Shown in pieces: positions 5,606 to 13,011 of a stretch of 64,000 nucleotides of DNA. Within the stretch, counting starts at the first letter, position 1. The number at the start of each line of letters is the position of its first letter. A program made the position numbers and the translations under genes. The stretch comes from Bacillus sp. THAF10. Lineage in GTDB: Bacteria; Bacillota; Bacilli; Bacillales; Bacillaceae_I. The notes beneath the pieces were generated by a model. That model was not told the DNA's origin. It ran no database searches and saw nothing but the letters and a program-made list of their open reading frames with translations. The stretch covers positions 2,522,001 to 2,586,000 of the forward strand of contig NZ_CP045403.1 in assembly GCF_009363695.1 (NCBI RefSeq). Direction: 5' to 3'.

Positions 5606-5635
5606 AACCAAAAAGCAGCCACGACAGCTGCTTTT
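5606..5635 (-). terminator. Terminator of msrA
   Basis: AAAAGCAGC pairs with GCTGCTTTT around a short loop and is followed, in minus orientation, by a T-rich run. It overlaps the msrA stop codon. Confidence 0.8.
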
Positions 5636-6260
5636 ACCACTTCAATTCACGAACGAGCCTCAAAAGCTCATCTTTTTCATGAATTTCCCACGTATTGATT
5701 TCTTCTTTTAATGATGCCAAAGTTCCATAGCCCTTCACAAAGCTATTTAAGCGAGCGACTAAAGTCGAATCTACCAAAGCCTGTTCCGTACCATAATATT
5801 GCTGCAGTAGTTCCCATGCTTTTGGGTATCTTTTGAGGTAGTATTTTTGGTGGCGCTGCTCCGCACAAGTAAAGGAAGTAAACGGTTGGAGCTCTGTACC
5901 GATGTTCCCTTCGATCTGTTCGCTTAAGCTCGCACGCACACTCAGTAATACATCCTTCTCTTCCTCATCACGGTACAAAAATAACGAAAGATACTGCCTC
6001 CCTTTATACGTGCCACGGGCGGGATTATGGGAGTTCCAAAAAAGACGAACAATGTCTTCAAAGCTGATAAGCCTAGAATCGAAATCAATTTCTAGGGTTT
6101 CCGTATGATCGCCCATCTGTTTATAGGTTGGATTGGCTGCCGTCCCTCCTGCATAGCCCACCCTTGTTCGAATGACTCCTGGTAAATACCCGAACCGGGC
6201 ATCTGTTCCCCAGAATCAACCCATCCCAAATGTGGCCGTTCTTATAACATTTTTAGCCAT
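5634..6260 (-). CDS. msrA: Peptide methionine (S)-S-oxide reductase, probable selenoprotein with UGA-encoded Sec15
   Basis: MsrA reduces the S-epimer of methionine sulfoxide. The frame starts at the ATG at 6260 (GGGAG ten bases upstream) and reads MAKNVIRTATFGMG, then TGA (6218-6216), then FWGTDARFGYLPG and on to a stop at 5634: 208 residues if the TGA is read. The TGA falls exactly on the catalytic cysteine of the GCFW motif. Both sides match MsrA (TFGMGxFWG, GYAGGTAANPTY, FWNSHNP, AEQRHQKYYL), so the frame is under coding constraint through the TGA. A SECIS-like hairpin follows directly. The only cysteine is about residue 132 (FTCAEQRHQ). Calling a shorter protein from the internal GTG at 6161 would delete the active site. 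The gene follows artR by 42 bp with no terminator between, so it may be co-transcribed. The alternative is a point-mutated pseudogene. Confidence 0.8.
6184..6218 (-). promoter_or_regulatory. Putative bacterial SECIS element: UGA plus downstream stem-loop
   Basis: After the UGA (6218-6216), 11 bases precede a 9-bp stem (AGAUGCCCG with CGGGUAUUU, two G-U pairs) closed by the loop GUU. With the top G-C pair open the loop reads GGUUC. Numbering the U of UGA as 1, GGU is at 23-25. In the Escherichia coli fdhF SECIS, GGU is at 22-24, and its G23-U24 contacts SelB. All pairings were checked by hand. Confidence 0.75.
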
Positions 6261-6302
6261 GAACATTCATCTCCCTTTATACTTTTGAAACGACCCCTTG
6301 CC

Positions 6303-7025
6303 TCAAAATATTTTATCCAAAAATTCTTTAGCACGTTGGGTTTTCGGTGCGGTGAAAAATTCGGCTGGTGTGGCTTCTTCTATTAGTTTTCCCTCATCTA
6401 AAAATAATACACGATCAGCGACTTCACGGGCAAAGCCCATTTCGTGGGTGACGATCGCCATCGTCATGCCGCTTTGAGCGAGGGCTTTCATTACTTCTAA
6501 TACCTCTTTGACCATTTCGGGATCTAAGGCAGAGGTTGGCTCATCGAAGAGCATCACTTCTGGGTCCATTGCAAGTGCCCGAGCAATCGCTACACGTTGT
6601 TTTTGCCCACCAGATAGGCGGCTTGGGTATTCGTGTGCTTTTTCAGAAAGTCCCACCTTTGAAAGAAGGTCCAGCGCCTTCGCTTCCGCTTCTTTTTTGG
6701 TTAGACCTTTTACAGAAACCGGGGCATACGTTAAGTTCTCTAGCACTGTTTTGTGTGGAAAAAGGTGAAAATGTTGAAACACCATTCCGAGGTTTTGTCG
6801 AACTTTATTGATGTTTGTTTTCTTATTGGCAACCTCTTCCTCCTTTATCCAGATTTGTCCGGAGGTAGATTCCTCCAACAAATTCATGCAGCGCAAAAAG
6901 GTGGATTTCCCTGAACCAGATGGTCCGATGATGGCAACCACTTCTCCAGCTTTAATTTCTGTTGATATCCCTTTTAGCACTTCATTTTCGCCAAAGGATT
7001 TGTGTAAGTTATCTATTTTAATCAC
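6303..7025 (-). CDS. artR: Polar amino acid ABC transporter ATPase (GlnQ/ArtR-like)
   Basis: The 240-residue ATPase has Walker [10 protein letters not shown], signature [16 protein letters not shown], Walker [14 protein letters not shown] and the switch histidine VTHEMGFA. This set is characteristic of the polar amino acid uptake subfamily. It starts with GTG at 7025 inside the permease 3' end (8-bp overlap), with AAAGGAG upstream. It drives uptake through the 7018-7686 permease. In B. subtilis the artPQR arginine transporter is at this map position next to brxB; I use the symbol on synteny and the exact substrate is inferred. Confidence 0.8.
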
Positions 7026-7686
7026 TGCGTCTCATTCTCCTTTCAATGAGCTTGCCAATAAATGTTAGGACCATCACAAGTCCGTAGTAGATGAGGCCCG
7101 CGAAGATAAATGCCTCAAGGAAAGCATATGTGTTCGATGCTGTCATAAAGGAGCGTCTCATGATGTCCATTACACCAATAACGGTGACGATGGCAGACTC
7201 TTTGGTGAGCGTGATGTATTCGTTCATGAGTGCTGGTAAAATATTTTTCAATGCTTGCGGTAGAATGATGTCCTTCATCATTTGGCGGTACGGAATGCCA
7301 AGCGCCATTGCTGCTTCTCGTTGTCCTTTGTCCACAGCCATGATGCCCGCACGAATGACCTCAGAGATGTAGGCACCAGAATTCAATCCAAACGCCAGAA
7401 TAGCGGCAGTGACAGGCTCAAGCGTGATGCCAGTTGCTTGTGGAAGCCCAAAGAAAATGAGCATGAGTTGCAGAACAAGTGGGGTTCCCCGAAAAATAGA
7501 TGTATAAATATCTGCAATGATAGCGAGTATTTTTATTCTGCCAATTTTACATAATGCCAGAAGTGTTCCAATGATAAACCCGATAATACCAGCGAGTGTT
7601 ACAACCTGTAAGGTAACTCCGATACCGCCTAAAATATAATCGGTGGAACCTGAGATGGCACTAAAATCCAAAAAGCCTATCGTCAA
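7018..7686 (-). CDS. artQ: Polar amino acid ABC transporter permease (ArtQ-like)
   Basis: This His/Glu/Gln/Arg-type permease of 222 residues has about five membrane spans and the EAA-like cytoplasmic loop ([30 protein letters not shown], about residues 132-162) that docks onto the ATPase. The start is TTG at 7686, eight bases after AAAGGAAT; no ATG fits. It lies between the binding protein gene and the ATPase gene and probably forms a homodimeric channel. Confidence 0.82.
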
Positions 7687-7715
7687 GTGTGACCATTCCT
7701 TTCTCTTATAAAAAT

Positions 7716-7752
7716 AAAATCAAAAGGGCGAAAGCTGCACCCTTTTGATTTT
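7716..7752 (-). terminator. Intercistronic hairpin between artP and artQ
   Basis: A perfect 13-bp stem (AAAATCAAAAGGG and its complement) is followed in minus orientation by ATTTTTAT. It lies between the binding protein stop and the permease start, so it probably acts as a partial terminator or 3' mRNA stabiliser giving excess binding protein. Confidence 0.75.
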
Positions 7753-7762
7753 CAACGTGTGC

Positions 7763-8554
7763 TTATTCCTCTTCTCCACCAAACCATTTGTTGATAAGTT
7801 TTTCCATCTCTCCGTTCTCTTCCATCTCCTTAAGAACCTGGTTGAACTCTTCTGTTAGTTCACTACCTTTTGGCAGAGCAATAGCGGAGCCTTTTTCATC
7901 GGACTCTAGTGTGAATCCAGTTAACTCTGGATCTTTTTCCATAAAGCCTTTCACAACGGTATCTTCAATAACAGCTGCATCAAAACGGCCAGTTTTGATA
8001 TCTTGGACTATTTGAGGAATGCGGTCGCGATTTTCAATCTTCATGTCTACTTCTTTCGCGATTTCTTCTGCTTTATCATATTGAATGGAGCCCATTTGCA
8101 CCCCAACAGTTTTTCCTTTCAAATCTTCTAAACTTGTTATATTGCTATCTTTTAAAGACACAATCATATTGTGAGCGTTATAATAAACATCCGTAAAATC
8201 CACTTGCTTTTCACGCTTTTCTGTTGGTGTCATACCGGCGAGAATCATGTCAATATTGCCTGCTTTCATTGCTGTGATCAAACTACCAAATTCCATATCG
8301 ACAATTTTCAGTTCATAGCCTAGCTCTTCTGTGATTGCTTTTGCCAAGTCCACATCAAAGCCAATAATTTCTTCGCCTTTCTCTGTATCAATATATTCAA
8401 AAGGTGGATAGTCTGCGGAGGTTCCCATTACCAGTACCTTTTTCCCATCCCCTTCCCCATTTGAAGAATTAGCACCATTGCCAGCTGTACCGCAAGCAGA
8501 TAGCATACTAATTGTTAAAATACTAATCAATGAACCTAATAACCATTTTTTCAC
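7763..8554 (-). CDS. artP: Amino acid-binding lipoprotein of the ABC transporter (ArtP-like)
   Basis: This extracellular solute-binding protein (family 3, 263 residues) begins with a lipoprotein signal ending in the lipobox LSAC (Cys21). The mature part shows the amino-acid binding fold: SADYPPFEYID, IIGFDVDLAKAI, DMILAGMTPTEKREKQVDFT and a C-terminal NQVLKEMEENGEMEKLINKWFGG. It would capture a polar amino acid for ArtQR. The start is GTG at 8554 behind AGGGGG. The gene has its own upstream region with a palindrome at 8597-8610. Arginine is the likely substrate by synteny only. Confidence 0.82.
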   Translation of the reverse strand: MKKWLLGSLISILTISMLSACGTAGNGANSSNGEGDGKKVLVMGTSADYPPFEYIDTEKGEEIIGFDVDLAKAITEELGYELKIVDMEFGSLITAMKAGNIDMILAGMTPTEKREKQVDFTDVYYNAHNMIVSLKDSNITSLEDLKGKTVGVQMGSIQYDKAEEIAKEVDMKIENRDRIPQIVQDIKTGRFDAAVIEDTVVKGFMEKDPELTGFTLESDEKGSAIALPKGSELTEEFNQVLKEMEENGEMEKLINKWFGGEEE

Positions 8555-12438: not shown

Positions 12439-12876
12439 TTAAATCTCTTCACAATGCTCTTCGAAGTAGCCTTGCAGCTTTGTGATAACGGACATTGGAT
12501 CATGTCCTTCGATTTCGTGACGTTCTACCATGGTGATGATTTGTCCGTCTTTTAAAAGGGCAAAGGACGGAGAGGATGGCGGATAGCCTTCGAAATAGTC
12601 GCGGGCTTTTTCCGTTGCGTCTTTGTCCTGTCCTGCAAATACCGTTACTAGGTGGTTTGGACGTTTATCATAATGGACGGCATGTGTTGCTGCAGGGCGG
12701 GCAATTCCACCAGCACAACCACACACGGAATTGACCATCACTAGGGTGGTTCCTTTACGTGCAAATGCTTCTTCCACGTCTTCTACCGTTTTAAGCTGCT
12801 CGTACCCTGCTCTGTCCATTTCTTCGCGGGCAGTACGGACAACATCATTCATAAACATATTAAAATCGATATTCAT
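12439..12876 (-). CDS. brxB: Bacilliredoxin of the BrxA/BrxB (YphP/YqiW) family
   Basis: Bacilliredoxins remove bacillithiol from S-bacillithiolated proteins in the cytosol. The thioredoxin-like 145-residue protein has the diagnostic CGC active site in [15 protein letters not shown] (about residue 52). The start is the ATG at 12876 behind AGGTGATC; an upstream GTG frame would include this ribosome site. Length equals that of YqiW. Position beside the art transporter and the bkd region matches B. subtilis brxB rather than brxA, so I use that symbol. It forms a single-gene unit with its own terminator. Confidence 0.9.
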
Positions 12877-13011
12877 GCTGATCACCTCAAGTTTTTAACT
12901 ACCTCTATCATACCAATTTTTTTAAAATAAAAAAACAATAAAGGTTTATGTTTTCCATATTCGGGTATAGAACAGTATATCATCCAGACCATGACCCTAT
13001 ACTCCCGATGG

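Follow-up and report, generated by a model that had tools for sequence, protein, structure and literature searches.

An msrA gene of Bacillus sp. THAF10, encoded on the minus strand at positions 5634-6260 of the window (the whole stretch of 64,000 nucleotides analysed), is almost certainly a functional selenoprotein gene in which the UGA of codon 15 specifies selenocysteine (Sec). The frame comprises 208 codons plus stop and is open except for one in-frame TGA at 6218-6216 (minus strand), situated at the place of the catalytic cysteine of the GCFW motif (surroundings TFGMG-TGA-FWGTDARFG). An earlier note on this DNA had described the gene as intact on either side of the TGA and the TGA as standing for the catalytic cysteine, and both points were borne out: the read-through translation matched Pfam PMSR (PF01625) at residues 8-144 (E 2.9e-38), and homologues carried TGC or TGT at the same codon. 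Against NCBIfam TIGR00401, the translation scored 106.5 bits, slightly below the cut-off of 108.1. The start and ribosome site claimed upstream were recovered by eye as a probable ribosome-binding site, AAGGGAG (6271-6277, minus strand), 10 nt before the ATG, and a possible intrinsic terminator (5610-5633, minus strand; by eye) adjoins the msrA stop. With translation table 11, msrA is left as a 175-aa open reading frame (ORF; 5634-6161, minus strand), which starts at a downstream GTG and is without the active-site motif, and the protein database version is 160 aa long (P0002); the truncation by automatic annotation expected in the note is therefore real, and a table-11 gene call would end this enzyme short of its active site. 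Four MsrA-like genes were found elsewhere in the genome, all with TGC or TGT at the codon 15 equivalent.

The genome containing the window consists of a single contig of 4,087,834 bases. The search proposed in the note for selA, selB, selD, and tRNA-Sec (selC), with absence of selB and selC taken as speaking against Sec, recovered four of four: in profile searches, selA scored 569.5 bits, selD 402.1 bits, and selB 377 bits (above the curated cut-off), and a tRNA-Sec with anticodon TCA scored 58.6 bits (cut-off 47 bits). All four genes are clustered within about 10 kb. SelA and SelD would provide Sec-tRNA-Sec, which SelB would carry to the ribosome while binding a hairpin just 3' of the UGA, and codon 15 would then be decoded as selenocysteine. 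The product would be an enzyme of the C. oremlandii type that reduces methionine-S-sulfoxide, with a catalytic and a C-terminal helical domain, in which Sec15 would attack methionine sulfoxide; our guess for the reductant is bacilliredoxin or thioredoxin.

The homologue comparison suggested in the note covered 122 distinct homologous loci, in which codon 15 was TGA in 47, TGC or TGT in 74, and TTG in one (L112, dropped because its N-terminus is apparently out of frame). Independent genomes thus bear the same TGA codon, and a chance nonsense mutation is unlikely, as had been argued. The additional disabling mutations that the note named as a sign against its reading were absent from 45 of the 47 distinct TGA genes. 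The two doubtful copies, L138 with an extra TAA and L168 (genome G026) with a frame change that splits it over two frames, may reflect either decay or sequencing error. TGA was present among named loci of the Sutcliffiella/Bacillus horikoshii group (L053-L059), Litchfieldia salsa, and Sediminibacillus massiliensis; the counts of co-occurrence with selB given below cover sampled genomes and are separate from these named-locus records.

Among 41 genomes (the own genome and 40 relatives), the TGA subfamily was found in 17, all of them selB-positive (including G026 with its two frames), and one genome (G029) had a subfamily member without stop and no selB. Within the genus (16 genomes), msrA and selB were both present in 13 and both absent in three. 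Across 397 genomes of the order, 52 contained the subfamily at E <= 1e-40, 44 in the TGA form and eight without stop, and selB accompanied 44/44 TGA forms versus 0/8 no-stop forms (Fisher p 1.3e-9); selB overall occurred in 178 of the 397 genomes, most of which were without a subfamily match at this threshold. The class sample of 398 genomes gave 29 matches at E <= 1e-35, 25 of them outside the order: five with TGA (selB in 5/5) and 20 without stop (selB in 7/20). Pooled over order and class, selB was present with 49/49 TGA forms, and the no-stop form occurred with selB in 7/28 and without it in 21/28 genomes, these genomes being related, with six Sec/Cys changes needed on the tree described below. 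The TGA form implies selB, and this does generalise beyond the order (49/49). The order's clean 0/8 does not generalise because 7/20 no-stop class genomes have selB, so a Cys form is not equivalent to selB loss. The seven class genomes with selB and a no-stop MsrA are G611, G690, G697, G481, G713, G579, and G705. The subfamily therefore mixes forms, with Sec only where selB exists and Cys with or without selB.

According to the available part of a 2022 review (PMC9312934), a SECIS element is a stem-loop immediately 3' of the UGA, and the window msrA carries such a stem-loop. It extends from +13 to +31 after the UGA (6185-6203, minus strand; comparison and folding), with 8 bp and the apical loop GUU at 6195-6193. 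RNAalifold on the 47 distinct TGA genes returned a single hairpin at +15 to +29, which was lengthened by two pairs to give the above boundaries, and no hairpin on the 74 Cys genes. At least seven of the eight pairs were formed in 45/47 distinct TGA genes versus 1/74 Cys genes, the hairpin having been defined on the same 47 TGA genes as were scored. Under a null of synonymous codons (1000 draws with the same amino acids), 6.7 of 47 genes would be expected to reach this number of pairs (maximum 16); the mean number of pairs in the TGA genes exceeded the null at z 13.5, and pairing of the Cys genes fell below their own synonymous null (z -3.5). In the 35 genes outside the genus, both sides of a pair had changed in 19 cells, where shuffles gave 7.6; with the partner displaced by 1 to 3 columns, pairing fell from 91.8% to 27.9-47.5%. 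For two of five measures (pairs changed on both sides and further pair types), the observed value was attained in 90 and 122 of 500 shuffles, respectively. Five TGA genes had been held out, of which three fit the register (7, 8, and 7 pairs) and two did not (L188 and L189, with 4 and 2 pairs), the latter folding into shifted hairpins; seven distinct held-out Cys genes formed 3-5 pairs. The SECIS-like hairpin mentioned in the note is real and conserved across TGA genes.

When the msrA sequence of the window was folded, the first 56 nt after the UGA adopted a different, longer structure (z -2.0), and the conserved 19-nt hairpin appeared when 28 nt were folded alone (z -3.0). Of 37 genes prepared from outside the genus, 35 served to build a covariance model of the hairpin, L188 and L189 being left out because of their differing register. 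This model gave 54.6 bits for the window element and 14.1 bits for the next candidate (150 of 1044 candidates scored), figures which are no independent proof of structure because coding sequence is included in the model. A search of the window against Rfam yielded nothing at gathering scores.

The selD gene of the same genome (L010:122-1186, minus strand) resembles msrA in having an in-frame TGA (codon 18, LSTKAG-U-GCKLGPSD) and a downstream hairpin with a GUU loop; the loop is positioned at +34 after the UGA in selD versus +21 in msrA. In 21 stretches (the own and 20 others), the TGA was kept in 16/16 selD genes, all with the GUU-loop hairpin, and 14 of these 16 come from the genus or family of the window and are hence close kin; the remaining five stretches gave no selD match. 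Folded from the single sequence, the selD hairpin was unremarkable (25 of 200 shuffles folded equally well), and the msrA covariance model did not list it. The loop GUU was present in 45/47 msrA TGA genes, where it is constrained because it codes for Arg/Gln-Phe, and the same loop in selD is the more telling pointer of the two. Formate dehydrogenase alpha was considered as a further reason for Sec retention and ruled out, as TIGR01591 had no match in the own genome (the positive control was found in 11/14 genomes); the Sec machinery is kept in this genome although that enzyme was not found. The VPGUxxT thioredoxin-like selenoprotein (NF041383) was likewise rejected, with two matches far below the cut-off, one of them the window msrA itself.

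UGA read-through occurs in bacilli, and selenium-free decoding of codon 15 by a near-cognate tRNA for Trp or Cys would be compatible with evidence drawn from sequence only; we nevertheless regard it as very improbable, given that TGA is confined to the selB-bearing genomes of the samples, the hairpin is conserved only in TGA forms, 74 other in-frame genes have Cys at codon 15, and selD combines TGA with a loop of the same kind. That msrA is a pseudogene created by a nonsense mutation, or a 175-aa remnant restarting at the downstream GTG, is less probable still and can practically be dismissed: table 11 shows only the short ORF and the four other Cys MsrA-like genes could make msrA dispensable, but the TGA recurs at the same codon in 47 distinct genes (45 otherwise open), the active site is conserved, and selB is present in 49/49 TGA genomes. 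The assignment of UGA to Sec15 made in the note is supported by selB, tRNA-Sec, the relatives' TGA codons, and the conserved hairpin, all of which are genomic observations.

A selenoprotein of this kind is known. As the note had stated for Alkaliphilus, CoMsrA of Clostridium (Alkaliphilus) oremlandii (PDB 4lwj, 4u66, and others) has its Sec at the corresponding position, which is Cys16 in the crystal form, and residues 7-207 of the window protein, with its predicted Sec15, align to residues 8-209 of CoMsrA (E 1e-51). The two share the same active-site residues and the C-terminal helical domain (5637-5828, minus strand), which in the window protein is covered up to residue 207 by the alignment to 4lwj and scores 17.7 bits against Pfam MsrA_helical (PF20939), below the cut-off of 23.7. 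They differ in host, a Bacillaceae member versus a strictly anaerobic Clostridium, and in Cys132, which is found in the window MsrA. Cys-type MsrA proteins of the same subfamily (Planococcus, Sporosarcina, Domibacillus, Paenibacillus, haloarchaea, and others) are 41-56% identical in the matched stretch and have the same active site, but their codon 15 is TGC or TGT and the conserved hairpin is missing; selB is absent from 8/8 of their genomes in the order and present in 7/20 elsewhere in the class.

Pfam includes a selenoprotein MsrA helical domain, and Sec-MsrA is listed in the available text of the 2022 review (PMC9312934) and, for Syntrophobacter, of a 2006 survey (PMC1794560), which counts three selenoproteins in Bacillales. 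The 20 commonest bacterial selenoprotein families, as given in the available part of a 2016 survey (PMC5029168), do not include MsrA. No report of Sec-MsrA in Bacillales was found in the literature searched, including the accessible portions of PMC9312934, PMC5029168, PMC1794560, PMC4479559, PMC4333827, and PMC8161402; most subscription papers lay outside this search, so such a report may be in print. The occurrence in Bacillales is wider than the survey tables, in their available parts, suggest. Judged from gene content, selenium-based methionine repair would be present in 44 of the 397 sampled genomes of the order. Bacillales are better known for aerobic Gram-positives.

The active site of CoMsrA includes Tyr47, Glu55, Gln89, Tyr90, His137, and Tyr140 (PMC4333827, accessible portion). 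Equivalents of these six residues were each kept in at least 49/50 Sec and at least 80/81 Cys rows; in the TGA forms, Y46, E54, Q89, Y90, and H137 were kept in 50/50 and Y140 in 49/50. Cys55, adjoining the catalytic Glu54, occurred in 22/50 Sec forms versus 0/81 Cys forms. The window MsrA has Thr55 instead, and its sole other cysteine, Cys132 (5865-5867, minus strand), was found in no other of the 131 compared rows. CoMsrA is described in the available text of PMC4479559 as lacking a resolving Cys and as being reduced by glutaredoxin and not by thioredoxin. It is conceivable, though rather doubtful, that Bacillales Sec-MsrA is not simply a 1-Cys enzyme and that Cys55, or Cys132 in the window species, pairs with Sec15 as a selenenylsulfide in a resolving arrangement found only with Sec. 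The Cys55-Sec association remains a lead because only two independent pairs lie on well-supported branches.

A quick tree was computed from 131 proteins (50 Sec and 81 Cys) after merging identical rows and excluding four short rows and L112. Six changes between Sec and Cys were needed, at least two of them forced by well-supported branches; the tree is unrooted, so that it gives no direction for these changes. Cys groups were scattered among the Sec rows (Planococcaceae and kin, Domibacillus, Paenibacillus, Carnobacteriaceae, and haloarchaea with Atribacteria). Replacement of Sec by Cys can apparently precede loss of the machinery, to judge from the selB-bearing genomes with a Cys form, and the Sec/Cys series lends itself naturally to the question of why some lineages retain Sec and others give it up.

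An amino-acid ABC transporter is encoded next to msrA (6303-8554), and in most genus loci its genes recur beside msrA in closely similar form; they were not seen in the stretches of genus loci L024, L034, and L057. A distant version (33-55% identity) adjoins the msrA of one Paenibacillus locus (L116); the other loci searched, many of which have short flanks, yielded no complete set. Across the loci searched, a general link between msrA and the transporter was rejected. A bacilliredoxin-like protein (PF06491) with a CGC motif is encoded at 12439-12885 (minus strand) and is a possible thiol partner, without evidence linking it to msrA. The segment 5431-5540, between the msrA stop and a TetR gene, contains roughly six copies of TTATCAGCC on the minus strand, noticed by eye; they sit inside a 92-aa ORF that is probably spurious.
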